A stretch of DNA of 47,873 bases from a virus. Shown here in pieces: positions 128-47,873 of the stretch (within the stretch, counting starts at the first letter, position 1; each line of letters opens with the position of its first letter). The stretch is from positions 1-47,873 of the IMG/VR virus record IMGVR_UViG_3300037488_000956; one strand, 5' to 3'. Made by a program: the position numbers and the translations under genes. The notes under the pieces were generated by a model. The model did no database searches. It saw nothing but the letters and a program-made list of their open reading frames with translations, and was not told the origin of the DNA.

Positions 128-274
128 CTGACCGACATCGCGCAGGAGGAGGCATCCAGTATCCCCACCGTAGACTCCACGCACATCGCCCAAGGTCGGT
201 TCAGCGAAATCATAGACCGGGTTAAGCAATGTGCCACGCGCCCCGCGGGTGCCGAGCCGAGGTATCCCCTATGA
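1..274 (+). CDS. Thymidylate synthase-like dCMP (hydroxy)methyltransferase, C-terminal part
   Basis: This is the 3' end of the gene that starts at 47169 and crosses the contig junction; the reading frame begins at base 2. The joined protein is about 283 residues. This segment carries the substrate-binding HLY motif (His223 and Tyr225 in the joined numbering), which in the family contacts the deoxyribose of the nucleotide, followed by the C-terminal tail. The stop codon overlaps the ATG of the dCMP deaminase gene as ATGA, so the two are translationally coupled. Function and the key substitution are described in the entry at 47169. Confidence 0.9.
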   Translation, partial: EVACLYNQESCPAAPPIGLGHLTITCSSSHLYEKNQPEASELLTDIAQEEASSIPTVDSTHIAQGRFSEIIDRVKQCATRPAGAEPRYPL

Positions 275-1470: not shown

Positions 1471-2280
1471 ATGATTGCCGACCTGTTTCTGAGAACGTAC
1501 CCCGCCGACTACAAGTGGCTGCCATTTCTGTTTCGGTCACTATTGAAGCACGCCCGGTGTTGGCGTGACCTGATTATCACACTGCCCCGCCCAAGTGACG
1601 CCATTATCGGTGCGTCGGGTGGTTCCGAGGTTTCGTGGCTTGGTCAACTAGCGGCACTTGACACAGCCTTGGGAGTTCCCTTCAAGACCTGGGCCGAACG
1701 GTTCCGCGAGAAAGGCGTAATCACCGGCAAGATTCACGTCTTTCAGTGTGATACGCACTACCCAGACGACTACCTCGGTCAGTGTATTACGAAACTTCGC
1801 GCGTGGGAGTACACTGACGCAGATGAGGTAGCATTTCTTGATTCGGACAACGTCCTCCTTCGTGAGTGGAATCCGTGCACCCTGCGAGGATTTGAGACTA
1901 AGCCTCTCATTGAGGTGCGTGATTGGAACGACTCGGGCCAGGCAAAAGTGGCTTGGTTCGACATCACCGAGCACCTCCTAGGTGATGTTCCGCCGTACGA
2001 GACGATGTGCCGCCACCCGTTCCAATACCCAGTCCAATTCTTACGACGGGCATATGCACTCGCGGCCACGAAGTTGGTAGGGGTGATGAAAGCCGGCCGT
2101 AAGATCAGTGAGTTCAATTACCTGGGCAACTACGCCGTACTTCATGAACCGGATAGTTTCGTCTTCCGAGCACCCCAGAGCCAAGGCCCTGACGTAGTAA
2201 AGCAATTCTGGTCCTACGGTGGTCTCAACTTTGAAGTCGAAGACGAACTTCGCCGCCTAGGTCTTTGGGAGGAGTCATGA
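1471..2280 (+). CDS. Glycosyltransferase-like protein (DUF6492-like)
   Basis: This 269-residue protein opens with a hydrophobic beta strand (IADLFLRTYPADY). It carries a clear DxD motif in AFLDSDNVLL at about residues 119-128, as in nucleotide-sugar-dependent GT-A enzymes, where the aspartates bind Mn/Mg and the sugar nucleotide. The start follows a strong AAGGAG. It follows the first glycosyltransferase-like gene by 13 bases and overlaps the FkbM gene as ATGA, so all three are probably co-translated. The acceptor is unknown. The gene neighbourhood points to a modified deoxycytidine in DNA, but this is inference. Confidence 0.65.
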   Translation: MIADLFLRTYPADYKWLPFLFRSLLKHARCWRDLIITLPRPSDAIIGASGGSEVSWLGQLAALDTALGVPFKTWAERFREKGVITGKIHVFQCDTHYPDDYLGQCITKLRAWEYTDADEVAFLDSDNVLLREWNPCTLRGFETKPLIEVRDWNDSGQAKVAWFDITEHLLGDVPPYETMCRHPFQYPVQFLRRAYALAATKLVGVMKAGRKISEFNYLGNYAVLHEPDSFVFRAPQSQGPDVVKQFWSYGGLNFEVEDELRRLGLWEES

Positions 2281-3008
2281 TACCCGTGCGGGTGGTGCGT
2301 GGGTTCATACCGGGGCACCCTGGAATATATGACATCTACACACTATCAGGTGATACGCACATCGGTAAGTGGGTGGCTGAGTCACAACGCCTCGACCATG
2401 ACCAGGCGGCCCTACCACGGATAGCAGCCTTGATCAAGCCTGACGACGTCATCTACGACGTAGGGGCTTACATCGGTGACCACACAGCCTACTATGCTTC
2501 TTGCGTACCCTTTGGGGCAGGGCAGGTGTTTGCCTTCGAACCCCAACCAGACGCATTCGTGTGCCTTGAACACAACACCCGCGTCTATTCCAACGTGCGT
2601 TGTTATAACGTAGCTCTGGGTGACGGTGGGTGTGCTCGCGTAAGCCAGGAGACGGTGGGAAACCTCGGGGCTCGTGCATTGCGAGATGGCCTATGTGAAG
2701 GTGCTGAGCACACCATCAGGCTAGACAATGTCGTAAGTACTCTCGGTTGGCCGAACCTCATCAAGGTGGACGTCGAAGGGTGGGAGTGCCGAGTGCTTGA
2801 GGGCGGCGTCAAAACCCTCTCCAGTACCAACCGGCCAACGCTGGTGCTGGAGGTGAATGCCGGAGCTCTGGGCAAGGCGGGTACCAGTGCGGAGACCATG
2901 TACGAATTCCTACGCGGTTACGGGTACCAGGACCTCCGTGACCTGTTCACGGGAGAGGTGTGGAACCCCTTAGACGCGCGGCCCCAGTTTGACGTGGTGT
3001 GTAAATAA
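2277..3008 (+). CDS. FkbM-family SAM-dependent methyltransferase
   Basis: This 243-residue protein has the FkbM hallmarks in order: D-V-G-A-Y-I-G-D-H-T at 61-70 (SAM-binding motif I), F-E-P at 87-89 and I-K-V-D-V-E-G-W-E (motif IV region). FkbM enzymes typically O-methylate sugar or polyketide hydroxyls. The ATG at 2277 is preferred over an upstream in-frame start because GGAGG lies just upstream and the ATG overlaps the previous stop. As the last gene of the modification cassette and of the whole plus-strand arm, it could methylate the sugar added by the upstream glycosyltransferases. The substrate is inferred. Confidence 0.85.
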   Translation: MIPVRVVRGFIPGHPGIYDIYTLSGDTHIGKWVAESQRLDHDQAALPRIAALIKPDDVIYDVGAYIGDHTAYYASCVPFGAGQVFAFEPQPDAFVCLEHNTRVYSNVRCYNVALGDGGCARVSQETVGNLGARALRDGLCEGAEHTIRLDNVVSTLGWPNLIKVDVEGWECRVLEGGVKTLSSTNRPTLVLEVNAGALGKAGTSAETMYEFLRGYGYQDLRDLFTGEVWNPLDARPQFDVVCK

Positions 3009-8233: not shown

Positions 8234-8992
8234 TCAAAACTCCTCTGCAAAGACGCCGCCTAGGGTTGGGTCACTCTCTTCACCCCACCCAGCGGCATTG
8301 GGGTCAAGGTCGTCATCAAATGCGAAAGTGTCCGTGCCATACGGCCACCAATAACAAGACAGGTCTACCCCCGCGGGCTTTGGGAATGCCCCCGAGTAAC
8401 GAAGCATCGCCAATTCCAAGTCGGTCGGTTGGCGCCCCAGACCGAATACGATGGTGGCTGTCACCTCTTGCAGAATCAGTGCATAGGTGCCGATGGTAGC
8501 CATGTCGGGGAAGACGAACAGAAGCGCCTGGATGATGGTTTCGAAGTTGACCATCGGTGTGCTGTTCTTCAGTCGTCGTAGTCGTATCACTACCCGATAG
8601 GTGGGGTCATCAAGAAGTGCATCAGCATAGGTTGCCTGGCCGTCTTCGTACCAACTTCCACCGGCCTGCTCGTCGTCCTCTTCACCCCACCCGAGTGCCA
8701 GAGTGTCATCGTCCCAACCGAAGTACATCAACGGCACTACGTGGGTGATACGTCGCGGCTGCCCAATACGCTTACCCAGGACGTCGAGGTTCACCCCAGA
8801 GACAATATGAGCACCCGTCTGGTCAACCGCATCGACGTCATCGAGTTGCATGATAACCTGCAACACCGGCTCCATGTCGTCGAAGGCACCGGCCACCATG
8901 GCCAAGAACGCCTTCCACTTGGCCTTATCTTGCCAAAGACCAGTAAGCCGCGAGACCGCAGTTGCTGCGTGGTCTACTGTTCCAACGCTCAT
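8234..8992 (-). CDS. Baseplate wedge protein (DUF2612, gpI-like)
   Basis: This 252-residue protein resembles the DUF2612 family, which occupies the P2 gpI position between the baseplate J protein and the fibres. The N-terminal helical region (about 1-90) has the family's pattern of a short helix bundle ending in LDVLGKRIGQPR. The rest is rich in Asp, Gly and Trp. It overlaps the upstream baseplate J gene as ATGA. It is expected to connect the wedge to the fibres. Confidence 0.75.
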   Translation of the reverse strand: MSVGTVDHAATAVSRLTGLWQDKAKWKAFLAMVAGAFDDMEPVLQVIMQLDDVDAVDQTGAHIVSGVNLDVLGKRIGQPRRITHVVPLMYFGWDDDTLALGWGEEDDEQAGGSWYEDGQATYADALLDDPTYRVVIRLRRLKNSTPMVNFETIIQALLFVFPDMATIGTYALILQEVTATIVFGLGRQPTDLELAMLRYSGAFPKPAGVDLSCYWWPYGTDTFAFDDDLDPNAAGWGEESDPTLGGVFAEEF

Positions 8993-10197
8993 GTCAATGC
9001 CACCATGATGATATTGCCCGTGAGAAGACTGCCGATTTCAGTCCAAGCGAGGACCAAGTCGCTGTCCGTCAACTCCGGCGCGGTGCGGCCTACCTGAATA
9101 TCCTCAATTGCCATGGCAGGCAACCCGTCTAACCCGATAACCGCTTGCTGAGCTATGGCCGCCAGGTGAAACCGGTAGACATCGCCGCTGGGTGGTTGGT
9201 TCGCCGCGGACCAGGCTACCAAGGCCGCCTTGACGGCCTCCTCACCCCCACCTCCGCCAAACCCCGCCCCCGCGCGCTCCCGGTAGCTGATTTCAAGGTG
9301 GTACTCAACCGGAGCGGCAGTCGTGTAGTGGAAGACGTGAGGGATGGACAACGAATCACTTACGGTGACTGTTGAAGACCCGACGGTAGTGATACCCGGT
9401 GGCTTCCGTGTGTAGAGTGCCGCCCCGATGTCACTTGCGCTTCCACCCGTCAAGACGGCAGCGATGGTATGCGGCGGCAAGGCATTGTCACCGGTCTTGA
9501 TACTCTGAACCACACCCGTGTCATTCTCCCATAGTTTCAACTGGCCGATACCAGGAACTGCGAGGAGACCCGCGCGAATCGAATCTAGGTAACCCACCGT
9601 GGGGGTGGCGGTAGACAGATTGCGACGAATGCGAAGTTGTTCGTCCGTCTCATAGGCATCCACCACCGTAGACGCACTTGGGTTCGTCACCGATAGCAAG
9701 CCGTAGATTGGTTTGACGATTTGAGTCACCTTACCAGCCGCGGAGATCTGACCCTTTACCAAGGCCTTACAAGTTACCAACTGAGCGCCACCCGTACCCG
9801 TCACACCCACGACCGAGGCGTAAACCACACCCGTATCCTCATCAGCAACCTGAGCACCCGCGGGTATTACAGCACCTGAGTTGATAATCATCGAGACATC
9901 AACCGAGGCATAGTCGCCCACCCCGCGGTTGACGCCATTTAGGCGCGCGGTGGAGGTGAGATTCTGCCCCGTCGCCACGTCGGGATTCCGACCATTGTAG
10001 GTATCTTCAATTGCCTGACCGTGGTCGTCAATACACTCGGCCATCGCACCCAAGAATTGCCCGTCGGGGGTAGGCGCATCCAAGTTGATGTCGTTACCGT
10101 AGATCAACTTCGTCTTGGCTTGGAGGTTCTCCAGAATTACGTCAAGCCGGTCACGGTAGAAGCCCGCGGCATTGATACCAATGTTGATGATACTCAT
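8989..10197 (-). CDS. Baseplate wedge protein J (baseplate_J family)
   Basis: This 402-residue protein matches baseplate J/gp47 proteins: an N-terminal helical region with DGQFLGAMAE, a central beta domain with V-I-P-A-G-A-Q-V-A-D-E-D (about 110-121), and a C-terminal Gly-rich loop followed by a helix-strand domain. It forms the wedge of contractile-tail baseplates and contacts gp25. ATGA overlaps link it to the gp25-like gene upstream and the DUF2612 gene downstream. Length is typical of the family. Confidence 0.85.
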   Translation of the reverse strand: MSIINIGINAAGFYRDRLDVILENLQAKTKLIYGNDINLDAPTPDGQFLGAMAECIDDHGQAIEDTYNGRNPDVATGQNLTSTARLNGVNRGVGDYASVDVSMIINSGAVIPAGAQVADEDTGVVYASVVGVTGTGGAQLVTCKALVKGQISAAGKVTQIVKPIYGLLSVTNPSASTVVDAYETDEQLRIRRNLSTATPTVGYLDSIRAGLLAVPGIGQLKLWENDTGVVQSIKTGDNALPPHTIAAVLTGGSASDIGAALYTRKPPGITTVGSSTVTVSDSLSIPHVFHYTTAAPVEYHLEISYRERAGAGFGGGGGEEAVKAALVAWSAANQPPSGDVYRFHLAAIAQQAVIGLDGLPAMAIEDIQVGRTAPELTDSDLVLAWTEIGSLLTGNIIMVALT

Positions 10198-10571
10198 GGC
10201 AGCACCAGGTTGATGGGAAGAGTCTCGCCGTAGATGTCTGAGACAACCATGGCAATGGACGCACGTCGCGTGTCGTGGTCAAAGGTTGACGAGAAGGTGA
10301 TAATGGAAGCTACCCCCGGAGTCTTAAGGGTGGTGGCCTTGATCTCCGATTGGAGGAGTTGTTCATCGGCCGAAGCACCGAAGATACGTGGTTCACCACT
10401 ACCCAAGTCCATCCAACCCACGCCCGCAGTACGGTCCAGGAACCACTCTTCTTTCATCAACTTAAGGTTCATGACGAGGAGTAGTGCCACCGCCTCGCTT
10501 CCCGTCGGTACAATAGAAATGGGGCGCCCAAAAATGGGTTCTCCCGTACTATCAACACGTCGGACGCTCAT
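10194..10571 (-). CDS. Baseplate wedge protein, gp25/W-like
   Basis: This 125-residue protein has the length and position of the gp25/W-type wedge protein immediately before baseplate J. It contains the R-T-x-G-V-G-W segment (about residues 47-53) and a conserved late E-I-K segment seen in this family. It is coupled by ATGA overlaps to the spike gene and the J gene. It is expected to bridge the baseplate and the first sheath ring. Confidence 0.7.
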   Translation of the reverse strand: MSVRRVDSTGEPIFGRPISIVPTGSEAVALLLVMNLKLMKEEWFLDRTAGVGWMDLGSGEPRIFGASADEQLLQSEIKATTLKTPGVASIITFSSTFDHDTRRASIAMVVSDIYGETLPINLVLP

Positions 10572-11215
10572 GGCTTTACCATTATAGTCTGTGAGGCCGC
10601 ACCAAGGGCTCCGTAGGTCATCTTCGAGTAGGTGTCGATACCACGTGCCATGACGGTGCCGTTGATGAGTGGTAGGAAGGTGGAGACTGAAGCCTGGGTG
10701 CCGATATGCGTTGTACCGTCCTTCCGCACACTGATACGATTGCCACCTGCACGGGTCCTCACCTCCGTGGCCGAGTCGTGCATGTCCACTAGTGCATTGG
10801 GTTTAGCGCTGAACCCCACGTAGGCGAAGGAGTCTGACAAGTCGAATTGCCTCAACTCGGTGGGGTCTTGCACCCCGCCCTTAGCCCACCAACCATCGAT
10901 GGCGCGTTCGGCAATGGCCAACACCACGTCCATGCCGGGATAGACCTCGAAGGTCAAGACCCCACCCGGGAAGAAACACGGTACGCTGAGACACAATGGC
11001 AGTTGGACCAGCTTACCGTCGGGCAATAATAGGCGTCGCACGGCCGGTTGTACCTCCGCCGTCTGGTCCGTCTTGTTGAAGCTCTGCAATATACCTGGGG
11101 TGCAGGTATGATGGTCCATGAGGATACCCACCACCAATTGCTCATCGGCGTCCTCTGGGTGTCCTGCCAACTGCTGGGTGTCCAGTAGGAGCTTATTAAC
11201 GCGGGCTCCCGTTTC
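10568..11215 (-). CDS. Baseplate spike or central puncturing protein (Gp138-like)
   Basis: This 215-residue protein has the Gp138 N-terminal pattern: T-P-G-I-L-Q-S-F, then A-E-V-Q-P-A-V-R-R and an OB-fold-like region with P-C-F-F-P-G-G. It has a short C-terminal Gly/Thr region in place of a long beta-helical needle. I place the start at 11215 because GGGAGGAG lies just upstream; the frame to 11242 would include this site. The upstream untranslated region contains copy 2 of the 112-bp structured element, so expression of the spike may be linked to that element. Confidence 0.75.
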   Translation of the reverse strand, partial: ETGARVNKLLLDTQQLAGHPEDADEQLVVGILMDHHTCTPGILQSFNKTDQTAEVQPAVRRLLLPDGKLVQLPLCLSVPCFFPGGVLTFEVYPGMDVVLAIAERAIDGWWAKGGVQDPTELRQFDLSDSFAYVGFSAKPNALVDMHDSATEVRTRAGGNRISVRKDGTTHIGTQASVSTFLPLINGTVMARGIDTYSKMTYGALGAASQTIMVKP

Positions 11216-36945: not shown

Positions 36946-37227
36946 ATGACCCATGTTCAAATGAACCTGTTGCTACGTGCCACCGACGCGCGCCGAAGCG
37001 TGGAGCGCACCCTACAAGGTGCCTTGCCCCGTAGCCTGACCAAGCGTTTTCGCCAGTTGATGCGGCTAAGTCGCCAACCGGTGATGATTAAAGAGGTAGT
37101 TCACGTTCACGCCACGGAGGACTCACCCGCACGTGAGACCGTACGGCTCGTGCCCAACCGCCTGTCGCGGTTGGCGGCAGCCGGACATCTGATCCAGGAG
37201 CTTCGTCAAGTGTCGGGTGAATCGTGA
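36946..37227 (+). CDS. Hypothetical basic protein, 93 residues
   Basis: This helical, Arg-rich protein (R-R-S-V-E-R-T-L, L-T-K-R-F-R-Q-L-M-R-L-S-R) is the first gene after the promoter at 36888. GGAGG lies eight bases before the ATG, and its stop overlaps the GTG start of the kinase gene. No family was recognised. A nucleic-acid-binding role is possible from charge alone. Confidence 0.6.
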   Translation: MTHVQMNLLLRATDARRSVERTLQGALPRSLTKRFRQLMRLSRQPVMIKEVVHVHATEDSPARETVRLVPNRLSRLAAAGHLIQELRQVSGES

Positions 37228-37889
37228 TCATCGCCATCGAAGGGGTGGACGGGGTGGGGAAGACCACGCTGGCGAAGACATTGGCTAACCGGCTCGGGGC
37301 AGTCTATCAGAAGTTCCCTGACCGTACCACTATTTCGGGTTCTGCTATTGATTATGCTTTACGGGGTCGTCCAGCGTCTTCTTGTATGTCAGCGGAGTGC
37401 TTTCAAGCCCTCAACACGGTAAACCGCCTGGAGTGCCTAGAGCATCTGACGAAGGCGGCGGGTAGTGCTACCAACCACCTGGTTTGTGACCGATATACGA
37501 TGAGCAGCCTGGTTTACGGTGGGTTAGACGGTCTGCCGCATGATTGGTTGGTGACGGTGGCAGAGAAACCACTTCCAGAAGCAGATTTACAAGTGCTGCT
37601 TACCGCGAACCCTAACAAAATCGAATGTGGTCGGTTGGCTGGCCGTGACCGCGAACACTATGAGCAGGGTGGGGTGGCGATAGTAACGGCACTACAAGCA
37701 CGGTTCGAAGCGCTGTGGTGCGCACGAGGGTGTTGTTGTGAGCCGGTTCTAGTTTGGGGCCACCGTTGGAAGGTGGTGGATACTAGCCACGCCAACGCGG
37801 CGGAAGTGTTATGCCGCGTAGAAGGTTGGGTGCAGTTTTTGATCAGACGTTGCCATGAAAATAAACCCGGGAGGTTGGGCCATGCGTAG
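37224..37889 (+). CDS. Thymidylate kinase-like P-loop kinase
   Basis: This 221-residue protein has the P-loop E-G-V-D-G-V-G-K-T-T (about 6-15) and the D-R-Y motif (C-D-R-Y-T-M-S-S-L-V-Y) typical of thymidylate kinases, which phosphorylate dTMP to dTDP. It starts with GTG, coupled to the previous stop. The genome has a second P-loop kinase at 46204, so the two may serve different nucleotides, one canonical and one modified. Confidence 0.8.
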   Translation: MIIAIEGVDGVGKTTLAKTLANRLGAVYQKFPDRTTISGSAIDYALRGRPASSCMSAECFQALNTVNRLECLEHLTKAAGSATNHLVCDRYTMSSLVYGGLDGLPHDWLVTVAEKPLPEADLQVLLTANPNKIECGRLAGRDREHYEQGGVAIVTALQARFEALWCARGCCCEPVLVWGHRWKVVDTSHANAAEVLCRVEGWVQFLIRRCHENKPGRLGHA

Positions 37890-44916: not shown

Positions 44917-45735
44917 ATGAAGACCTTTCCGGAACCTGTGAAGCACCCGCGGACAGACCGCGGCGCCCGTGAGTTTGACCAGAGCAGTCTGCGCAACAGT
45001 AGTTACGGCAAGATGGTACACCGAGACTACGCCGCCCACTGGTTCAGGTGGCAGTATGCCGTGAGGTTCGTCAAGGCCGGTATGCGGGTGCTTGACATTG
45101 GTTGCGGACCCGACCAGATGATGGTACGGGTGCTGACGCATTCCCAGTCCAACGTGCCGGCACTGTATGTCGGGGTGGACATGAACAAGCTCGAGAAGAC
45201 TACACAGATCGCCTGGGCTCGAGTCTTGGACGAGTTCGACTTTACCCGACGGTGGAAGGAACTCCTCAAGGGGTCTTACTCCGTGGGTTCGACGGCCAAG
45301 CGGGCAGACGCCGCAAAGCGGGAGTTCGACACTGGTTCGTTCGACGTCATTACCTGCTTCGAAGTCATCGAGCACATGCCCAAGGCCCAGGGGTTGCAAC
45401 TCCTCAAGGGTATTCGAGAGTGCTTGGGCCCGACGGGGGTGGCTCTCTTGTCGACACCCGTCTACAATGAGAAGCACATGGCAGCGAACCATCTTCATGA
45501 GTACCGCTTCGAGGAGCTCCAGGAAACCATCACGAAGGCCGGCCTTCGTGTGGACCGGGTGGTGGGTACCTTCATGACATCCCAAGCCGCCAAACGTGCC
45601 GCCTCCACGGAGCAACGAGTGCTATTGAACTCACTTCACGAACGGTGGTTCTCGTGGGAGGTGCTAGCATGCCTCCTGGCACCCCTCTACCCCGAACAGT
45701 CTAGCAACTGCTGCTGGATTCTGAGGCGGGTCTAG
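44917..45735 (+). CDS. Class I SAM-dependent methyltransferase
   Basis: This 272-residue enzyme has motif I V-L-D-I-G-C-G-P (about 56-63), the F-D-V-I-T-C-F-E-V-I-E-H motif and a typical L-S-T-P-V-Y strand, as in UbiG-like methyltransferases. The substrate is unknown. It is preceded by the same 20-base leader as the C5-cytosine methyltransferase gene and starts the run of genes leading to the dCMP cassette, so it may add a methyl group to a nucleotide, sugar or small molecule in the same pathway. Confidence 0.75.
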   Translation: MKTFPEPVKHPRTDRGAREFDQSSLRNSSYGKMVHRDYAAHWFRWQYAVRFVKAGMRVLDIGCGPDQMMVRVLTHSQSNVPALYVGVDMNKLEKTTQIAWARVLDEFDFTRRWKELLKGSYSVGSTAKRADAAKREFDTGSFDVITCFEVIEHMPKAQGLQLLKGIRECLGPTGVALLSTPVYNEKHMAANHLHEYRFEELQETITKAGLRVDRVVGTFMTSQAAKRAASTEQRVLLNSLHERWFSWEVLACLLAPLYPEQSSNCCWILRRV

Positions 45736-45737
45736 TC

Positions 45738-46217
45738 ATGCCACGCACCGTACATGACGTAATACCCCAACCCGGTCGATGTGTGAGTCGGGCTTACGAC
45801 CATGAAACCAACCAGGTGGCGGAGATGCACCTGAAATTCAAGTTGGGTCGTTCTAGACGCCCGACCTTATTGGGTACCGCCCGCCTCAAGCAGAGGTTGG
45901 AATGTCTCATAGAGGAACTCATGGAGTTCCGCGCGGCGGTAACTGACGGGAACCTCCCCGAGATGGCCGACGCCTTGGTGGACCTGGTGGTGTTTGCCAA
46001 GGGTACCGCGGTGCTGCTGGGTCTCCCCTGGGCCGCACTTTTCGATGACGTCATGCGAGCCAACCTATCAAAGGTCCGTGGGGTGGGGAAGCGTGGCCAC
46101 AAGGTGGACCTGGTGAAGCCGGAGGGGTGGCGAGGACCCCAGACCCGCGACATCCTATTCGAGCACGGGTGGAACCCTGAAGAGCCTCCGAAGGAGGATG
46201 CCGATGACACTGTGTAA
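45738..46217 (+). CDS. MazG-like all-alpha NTP pyrophosphatase
   Basis: This 159-residue protein shows the family's metal-binding pattern E-E-L-M-E, then about 11 residues, then E-M-A-D, in a helical core (about residues 54-95). The superfamily includes MazG, dUTPase of the all-alpha type and T4 gp56 dCTPase. In this context a likely role is to convert dCTP to dCMP, which both starves unmodified DNA and feeds the dCMP enzymes downstream. This substrate is inferred from gene order. The start lacks a strong ribosome binding site. Confidence 0.65.
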   Translation: MPRTVHDVIPQPGRCVSRAYDHETNQVAEMHLKFKLGRSRRPTLLGTARLKQRLECLIEELMEFRAAVTDGNLPEMADALVDLVVFAKGTAVLLGLPWAALFDDVMRANLSKVRGVGKRGHKVDLVKPEGWRGPQTRDILFEHGWNPEEPPKEDADDTV

Positions 46218-47172
46218 GAAGGTCACTATCTTCGAGGGCCCTGATGGGGGTGGTAAGTCGACCGCCGCCCGTGAGTACGCCGAGGCTTTTGGCGCGCGGC
46301 TTGTACACTGTGGGCCATTCCCGGGAGTCACCCGCCGTAGCCTCGGTCGGTTATACTTGGAGGCTATGGCACCAGCCCTCGAGGGCTATCAAGACGTGGT
46401 ATTGGACCGGTGTTGGCTTAGTGAGCCCATTTACGGGGCGGCCTTCAGGGGTGGGGAAGATCGTCTCGGGGTGGTGGGCCGGCGTATCTTGGAACGGGTG
46501 GCTCTGAGGTGTGACGCACAGGTGATTCTATGCCTACCCAAGTTCAAAACGTGTTTGGCCAACTGGCAGCGTCGTCACGCCACGGGCGGGGAGTACCTGA
46601 CGAAAGAGGCTCAGTTTCGCCAGGTCTACGATGAGTATTCTACCCGCTGCGCGGTAGGTCGGTTGACGGAACTCCAGGTGACATTCTACGACTACGAACG
46701 TGGCCGAGAGTGGAGTACCGAAGAGATTTCATCTCGTGTTGCGCGTTGTCACGATACCGCAGAACCCTCCGCGGGCAACCGGCAGGCTCGGGTGTTGATT
46801 GTAGGTGAAGCACTCGCAAATCACTCTGACTACGATTCATTCTACCAACACCCGTTCTGCGGCCTAAACCCCGCCGGTTGCTCTTGGTGGTTGACGGAAC
46901 GATTGGCCGACGCGGGTATTCGTGAGCGGGACCTTCTTTGGGCCAACATCGGCGCGGGTTCAGTCAGTGTGGTTTTGTCACATAACCGTCACGGTGATGC
47001 GGCGCGTGTCGTAGCGCTAGGTGTTGCGGCGTTGAAATGGATTGAGATGTTCCGAACACCTACCTTCCGACCGCCTCGACTTTGGCCTCAGCGACACCCG
47101 CAATTCTGGCGGCGTTTTTGTCGTGCAAAACCGTACCCTCTGATCGAAACTTTGAAAGTGGTGACGACATGA
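46204..47172 (+). CDS. P-loop nucleotide kinase fused to UDG-like domain
   Basis: This 322-residue protein has a thymidylate-kinase-like half (P-loop G-P-D-G-G-G-K-S-T at 12-20; L-D-R-C-W-L-S-E-P-I-Y at 67-77) and a C-terminal half (about 197-322) that resembles uracil-DNA glycosylase families 4/5: V-L-I-V-G-E-A at 197-203, P-F-C-G-L at 217-221, V-V-A-L-G-V-A-A near 270 and a late R-H-P segment. Some glycosylase active-site residues are not obvious. The start at 46204 is preferred because GGAGG is six bases before it but adjacent to the ATG at 46198. It may phosphorylate a modified dNMP. Confidence 0.65.
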   Translation: MTLCKKVTIFEGPDGGGKSTAAREYAEAFGARLVHCGPFPGVTRRSLGRLYLEAMAPALEGYQDVVLDRCWLSEPIYGAAFRGGEDRLGVVGRRILERVALRCDAQVILCLPKFKTCLANWQRRHATGGEYLTKEAQFRQVYDEYSTRCAVGRLTELQVTFYDYERGREWSTEEISSRVARCHDTAEPSAGNRQARVLIVGEALANHSDYDSFYQHPFCGLNPAGCSWWLTERLADAGIRERDLLWANIGAGSVSVVLSHNRHGDAARVVALGVAALKWIEMFRTPTFRPPRLWPQRHPQFWRRFCRAKPYPLIETLKVVTT

Positions 47173-47873
47173 GACACGTCCTTGATTGCTACCAGCCCAA
47201 CAGCTTCGAACCCGTACCCACCGCCAACGAAGCGTGGTTAAGTCTACTGCGTAACCTAGTATTTCGTAGCGCGAAGGTCTCGCCCCGAGGCCTGGCGTCT
47301 TATGAAATACTTCACCACGTCTCTCTTTCCGTGGACTTGAATCATCCGGTGGTGACGTGTCCGAAACGTAAGTTGAACTACCGCTTCATGGCGGCGGAAG
47401 CCTTGTGGATTGCGGAGGGGCGGTGCGACTTAGCACCGCTGACGGCAGTCAACCCCAACATGGTCAACTTCAGTGACGACGGCTTGACTCTAGCCGGCGC
47501 CTATGGGCCGCGTCTTCGACCCCAGTTGCCCTATGTGGTGGAGACCCTCCTCCGTGACCGGGATACCCGTCAAGCGGCCATGACGATCTGGACACCAAAC
47601 CCGCGGCCCAGTAAGGACATCCCATGCACCATCGCCATGGTGTTCGCCATCCGGGAGAATCGCCTCTACCAGCAGGCCTTCATGCGCTCGAGTGACGTGT
47701 GGCTCGGGATACCCTATGACATCTTCTCATTCTCCCTCCTGGCCTACGAGGTAGCGTGTCTATACAACCAAGAGTCTTGCCCGGCGGCACCACCCATCGG
47801 ACTTGGGCACTTGACCATCACTTGCTCTTCGAGTCACCTCTATGAGAAGAACCAACCCGAGGCTTCAGAGTTG
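47169..47873 (+). CDS. Thymidylate synthase-like dCMP (hydroxy)methyltransferase, N-terminal part
   Basis: The joined gene (47169 to 47746, then 1 to 274) encodes about 283 residues of the thymidylate synthase fold. The family residues are present: Glu77, catalytic Cys153 (I-P-C-T), Arg173 and Asp176 (R-S-S-D-V-W-L-G). At the position of E. coli Asn177, which selects dUMP, this protein has Asp184 (G-I-P-Y-D-I-F). The same Asn-to-Asp change marks T4 dCMP hydroxymethylase. The usual folate-side Trp80 also appears to be lost. The likely product is 5-hydroxymethyl-dCMP or 5-methyl-dCMP; dTMP is the alternative. The ATG overlaps the kinase stop. Confidence 0.75.
   Translation, partial: MRHVLDCYQPNSFEPVPTANEAWLSLLRNLVFRSAKVSPRGLASYEILHHVSLSVDLNHPVVTCPKRKLNYRFMAAEALWIAEGRCDLAPLTAVNPNMVNFSDDGLTLAGAYGPRLRPQLPYVVETLLRDRDTRQAAMTIWTPNPRPSKDIPCTIAMVFAIRENRLYQQAFMRSSDVWLGIPYDIFSFSLLAYEVACLYNQESCPAAPPIGLGHLTITCSSSHLYEKNQPEASEL
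47747..47873. repeat. Terminal direct repeat, right copy (assembly closure)
   Basis: This is the exact second copy of bases 1-127. No mismatch was found in a base-by-base comparison. Any annotation in one copy should be counted once. Confidence 0.95.

Follow-up and report, generated by a model that had tools for sequence, protein, structure and literature searches.

Which pyrimidine nucleotide is acted upon, and with what result, by a phage enzyme that databases name thymidylate synthase is the question raised by the gene that spans the two ends of this contig. Hydroxymethylating cytosine before DNA synthesis is a known means by which phages hide their DNA from bacterial defences, and we suggest that the gene probably (we would put it at about 0.83) encodes a folate-dependent dCMP 5-hydroxymethylase of the thymidylate synthase superfamily, as judged from its residues and predicted structure. 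Enzymes of this kind are already known, and the gene most likely adds another member.

The window (the whole stretch of 47,873 nucleotides analysed here) is a single phage genome with 47,746 unique bases, carrying identical copies of a 127-base terminal direct repeat at its two ends (1–127 and 47747–47873). Given this identity the contig is circularly closed, and the gene is consequently not truncated: residues 1–235 of 283 are encoded at 47169–47873 (+), and the C-terminal part and stop follow across the contig junction at 128–274 (+). The ORF begins with the ATG at 47169, overlaps the preceding gene by 4 bases and specifies 283 amino acids including Met. Its product matches PF00303 (3.3e-16, 59.7 bits against a cut-off of 24.3), and its predicted structure (pLDDT 93.2, pTM 0.89) is matched by structures of the thymidylate synthase superfamily at Z 21–25, so that profile and modelled fold together place the protein in that superfamily. 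The best solved match listed was the CMP 5-hydroxymethylase MilA (Z 24.7, 1.5 Å over 213 residues, 33% identity), tied on Z with the second, the phage dCMP hydroxylase 9iqc (Z 24.6, 20% identity; the related 9iqu, Z 23.9), and next came the E. coli and M. tuberculosis ThyA proteins (Z about 22); T4 gp42 was absent among the best 50 structure matches listed, which says nothing on the gp42 fold. A profile of 34 homologues searched against the PDB also returned MilA first (5.5e-37), the DVFSF of MilA facing DIFSF of the window protein. In the tree the window enzyme groups with homologues L003 and L033 (100/99), apart from the SPO1-type dUMP enzymes; the deeper forks, including those of T4 gp42 and MilA, carry long branches and are of uncertain placement.

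The first-pass annotation had drawn attention to a G-I-P-Y-D-I-F motif, and this indeed forms residues 180–186, within the stretch 47706–47746 (+) that encodes GIPYDIFSFSLLAY (G-I-P-Y-D-I-F-S-F-S-L-L-A-Y), with Asp184 (codon GAC, 47718–47720, +) at the discriminating position occupied by N177 in E. coli ThyA and D179 in T4 gp42. The catalytic nucleophile, Cys153 (TGC, 47625–47627, +), corresponds to E. coli C146 and T4 C148 and lies 31 residues before Asp184, the same spacing as C146–N177 in ThyA and C148–D179 in gp42; since this stretch aligns without a gap to both, the equivalence of Asp184 is independent of any gapped alignment. We base it on that ungapped alignment and on the shared predicted fold, the structure search having supplied no residue map. 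Asp184 is invariant in 17 clade members, in the 34-member alignment and in 80/80 IMG/VR homologues. The 80-locus set was gathered with the patterns KD(V/I)PCT and MRSSD, and the conservation of D150, C153, T154, S174 and D176 is therefore biased in this set; D184 lies outside these patterns and its conservation is unbiased. The full residue set of the window enzyme is E77, Y112, R134, D150, C153, T154, S174, D176, D184, H223 and Y225. Among these, Glu77 (codon 47397–47399, +) corresponds to E. coli E58 and T4 E60, Asp150 (47616–47618, +), three before the Cys, to T4 D145 and to Leu143 of E. coli ThyA (PMC6400193), Thr154 (47628–47630, +) to E. coli H147, and Asp176 (47694–47696, +) to the pterin-contacting E. 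coli D169, which is Asn in hydroxylases of the AfhB type.

The claim that Asp in place of Asn177 signals a preference for dCMP is borne out by the literature, in which position 177 is the dUMP/dCMP switch (PMC8670742; PMC6400193; PMC5175136), and by our panel, which has Asn there in E. coli ThyA, SPO1 gp29 and phiMAM1 and Asp in T4 gp42, Xp15 and MilA. Positions 147 and 177 together track the base preference of the panel enzymes of known substrate (His/Asn in ThyA, Asn/Asn in SPO1 gp29, Thr/Asp in T4 gp42 and MilA), position 147 being Thr in dCMP enzymes and Asn in the panel dUMP-hydroxymethylases (PMC8670742), and the window enzyme has Thr/Asp. With the residue three before the Cys added, positions 177/147/Cys−3 read Asp/Thr/Asp in the window enzyme as in T4 gp42, Xp15, phage G and MilA, elsewhere Asn/Asn/Asp in dUMP-hydroxymethylases and Asn/His/Leu in E. 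coli ThyA. That dUMP is the substrate, whether for methylation to dTMP or for hydroxymethylation, thus appears very improbable, even though its database name is thymidylate synthase (as the first-pass annotation expected of automatic naming, and as holds for AXL3_28) and its homologue in phage PW916 is labelled deoxyuridylate hydroxymethyltransferase. Where a dTMP synthase has Asn177, Leu143 and His147 the window enzyme has Asp, Asp and Thr; the NCBIfam thymidylate synthase models score far under their cut-off; and SPO1 gp29, which shares the Asp at Cys−3, the FSDDG loop and the lack of W80, differs by its Asn147 and Asn177, the Asn/Asn pair also found in phiMAM1, in place of Thr154 and Asp184. 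It is slightly less likely still that the substrate is CMP. MilA (PDB 5jnh, 5b6d) is the closest solved relative in sequence and fold and shares the Asp (its Asp186), the Asp at Cys−3 and the Thr, but it is part of antibiotic biosynthesis and uses its own Lys133 and Ala176 for CMP, whereas Arg134 and Ser174 at these positions of the window enzyme form the pair of deoxy-specific enzymes acting on dCMP or dUMP (PMC5175136).

As regards the product, Asp184 alone is insufficient for hydroxymethylation, since Asn-to-Asp mutants of thymidylate synthase are cited as yielding 5-methyl-dCMP (Liu & Santi 1992, as cited in PMC8670742). These mutants also speak for a methyltransferase that converts dCMP to 5-methyl-dCMP, an activity reported for phage Xp12, though we regard this reading as improbable: in T4 the D145 three before the Cys activates the water for the hydroxymethyl group, the D145N enzyme gives no hm-dCMP and thymidylate synthases have Leu at this position (PMC6400193), where the window enzyme has Asp150. 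This Asp is found at Cys−3 in all panel hydroxymethylases with the exception of L013, whose homologue (9989–10798) has Asn; given the inactive T4 D145N, the L013 enzyme may be dead or different. We consider Asp150 better evidence for a hydroxymethyl over a methyl product than Trp80, whose loss the first-pass annotation had taken to favour hydroxymethylation. There is indeed no Trp at that point, but the proposed Met opposite W80 did not hold, MAFFT setting Met98 against I79, a gap against W80 and Phe101 against W83; the position is likewise a gap in SPO1 gp29 and the clade of the window enzyme. The argument from Trp80 fails in any case, T4 dCMP hydroxymethylase retaining Trp82 (PMC6400193), and we rejected W80 loss as a mark of hydroxymethylation, the T4 enzyme having the Trp and both the dUMP-hydroxymethylases and the flavin dCMP hydroxylase lacking it. 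The Asp, sound as a mark of dCMP, also fits an enzyme that had not been considered, the recently described flavin-dependent 5-hydroxy-dCMP synthase (RB69 ORF048/9iqc), an AfhB-type enzyme that would place OH directly on C5 of dCMP as precursor of glycosylated 5-hydroxycytosine; RB69 and similar phages make 5-hydroxy-dCMP with an enzyme of this superfamily (PMC13390438). RB69 ORF048/AfhB (PDB 9iqc, 9iqu) shares the thymidylate synthase fold, Asp177, Thr147 and the dCMP substrate, its structures were the second-best solved match listed (described as riboflavin-dependent monooxygenase and phage dCMP hydroxylase, the flavin cofactor being given in the PDB title), and glycosyltransferase-like genes lie downstream of the window gene. 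Against this, identity is 20% as compared with 33% for MilA, and AfhB-type sequences have Glu at Cys−3 and Asn at D169 in 8/8 and Phe at Y209 in 7/8 (OLIVR5 has Tyr209), whereas the window enzyme has Asp150, Asp176 and Tyr225. These marks are correlations derived here from eight sequences, and may bear on the choice of cofactor; as sequence features they favour a folate enzyme over a flavin hydroxylase, which we think has only a slender chance of being the correct reading.

The preferred reading, a dCMP 5-hydroxymethylase, does not make the window enzyme a close copy of T4 gp42 (PDB 1b49, 6a9b). The two share the catalytic Cys, Asp at E. coli position 177 (Asp184), Asp at Cys−3 (Asp150; PMC6400193), the Thr after the Cys and the deoxy-specific Arg/Ser; T4 gp42 differs in having Trp82 and Ser94 and in its separate long branch of uncertain position. 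The T4 signature also has Ser/Thr two before the active-site Tyr (S94-x-Y96), where the window enzyme has Gly110-Ala-Tyr112 in the S-x-Y register; the Ser is absent from SPO1 gp29 and most of the clade as well. With Gly110 in place of Ser, we do not file the enzyme as T4-type by the full published signature, and assign it only as a probable hydroxymethylase of another clade. A further point against the hydroxymethylase reading is Gln135 at the position of E. coli R127 and T4 R124.

The gene belongs to a conserved cassette, which runs from a class I SAM methyltransferase (44917–45735, +; PF13489) through a MazG/PRA-PH-like NTP pyrophosphohydrolase, a candidate dCTPase (45738–46217, +; PF01503), and a P-loop nucleotide kinase (46198–47172, +; phrog_761), which may act on hm-dCMP and carries an additional C-terminal domain, to the hydroxymethylase and a dCMP deaminase (229–735, +; PF00383, phrog_174); relatives keep this cassette entire or for the most part. 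The deaminase, kinase and pyrophosphohydrolase parallel the T4 pathway. Within 7 kb on each side of 80 homologue loci there is a dCMP deaminase at 75, an NTP pyrophosphohydrolase at 65, a kinase at 59 and a SAM methyltransferase at 53, a pattern like that reported for modified metagenome contigs, where PF00303 is found together with PF01503 and PF00383 (PMC8670742). The thymidylate synthase homologues of those MetaGPA phage contigs also share Asp177 (PMC8670742); the window genome differs in having no match to the carbamoyltransferase N-domain (PF02543), and on that ground carbamoylated hmC was rejected. The C-terminal domain of the kinase (residues about 190–324) is kept in most relatives and absent from L003 and L033, and its motifs GEALA and HPQFW recall, by eye only, uracil-DNA glycosylases; a second thymidylate-kinase-like gene lies at 37224–37889 (+; PF02223, phrog_761), and the cassette methyltransferase could modify the hydroxymethylated nucleotide.

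From the fold, residues and operon, as read in sequence and model, we infer the chemistry, product, incorporation and protection as follows. Cys153 would attack C6 of dCMP, Asp184 would orient the cytosine and protonate N3, and methylene-tetrahydrofolate, partly held by Asp176 and activated through Glu77, would donate its carbon to C5; water activated by Asp150 would then attack the exocyclic methylene to give 5-hydroxymethyl-dCMP, not dTMP. This product would be phosphorylated by the cassette kinase and, with the pyrophosphohydrolase clearing dCTP, would be incorporated by the polymerase as hm-dC, which would shield the phage DNA from restriction. A C5-cytosine DNA methyltransferase in the window genome (33390–34517, +; PF00145, 4.4e-10), with a homologue near 8/80 hydroxymethylase loci, would find no substrate if every cytosine already carried a C5 modification, and is counted against this reading.

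The observation closest to experimental support comes from Stenotrophomonas phage AXL3. Of 37 restriction enzymes, just two, TasI and Tru1I, cut its DNA, and these lack G/C in their recognition sites; the 35 that failed to cut all have G/C in theirs. The authors of that study gave no explanation for the resistance and named gp28 a thymidylate synthase (PMC7504290). AXL3 has the cassette as in the window and gp28 (L026) has identical active-site residues; the analogy is with an enzyme 45% identical, and hydroxymethylation is a possible explanation of the resistance. AXL3 gp28 and the homologue of Pseudoxanthomonas phage PW916 share 41–45% identity, the five-gene cassette and the active-site residues with the window; they differ in that homologues of the genes downstream in the window (GT1, GT2 and FkbM) were not found beside the cassette and in the presence of a separate ThyX. 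Such a ThyX occurs in 5/15 records searched, including these two, and a search of the window genome found none.

The downstream genes comprise GT1, a GT-A-like putative glycosyltransferase (732–1457, +), which has no Pfam, PHROG or NCBIfam match and whose low-confidence model (pLDDT 50) gave GT-A glycosyltransferases as top matches (Z about 10); GT2, a putative glycosyltransferase with an LDSD motif (1471–2280, +) whose homologues match DUF6492 (PF20102); and an FkbM-family methyltransferase (2265–3008, +; PF05050). GT1 and GT2 lie beside the hydroxymethylase gene in the window, L003 and L032, which are the three phages most alike, and in 0/78 other loci over the stretch examined, and the phage records searched contained no homologue of either. 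The two genes are, however, found together on contigs that lack a PF00303 gene altogether (L125 and others), which are classed as linear and may be fragments; we therefore do not treat glycosylation of hmC as established, and regard it only as a possibility. Rather speculatively, GT1, GT2 and FkbM might together decorate phage 5-hydroxymethylcytosine with a sugar or disaccharide carrying an O-methyl group, a hypermodification of which we found no description. On L125, a phage contig without the hydroxymethylase, one ORF (8645–10804) adjoining GT1 joins GT2, FkbM and a domain resembling, by eye, a sulfotransferase.

The thymidylate synthase label, frequent in this clade, hides a probable replacement or modification of cytosine by the phage. 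We propose that E. coli positions 143/147/169/177/209, read together, give a testable sorting rule for the superfamily: L/H/D/N/Y for dTMP synthase, D/N/D/N/Y for dUMP hydroxymethylase, D/T/D/D/Y for dCMP hydroxymethylase and E/T/N/D/F for flavin dCMP hydroxylase. The homologue of Mycobacterium phage Candle (L040, 3022–4020) has Thr147 but Asn177 and Asn169, and fits none of these four patterns.
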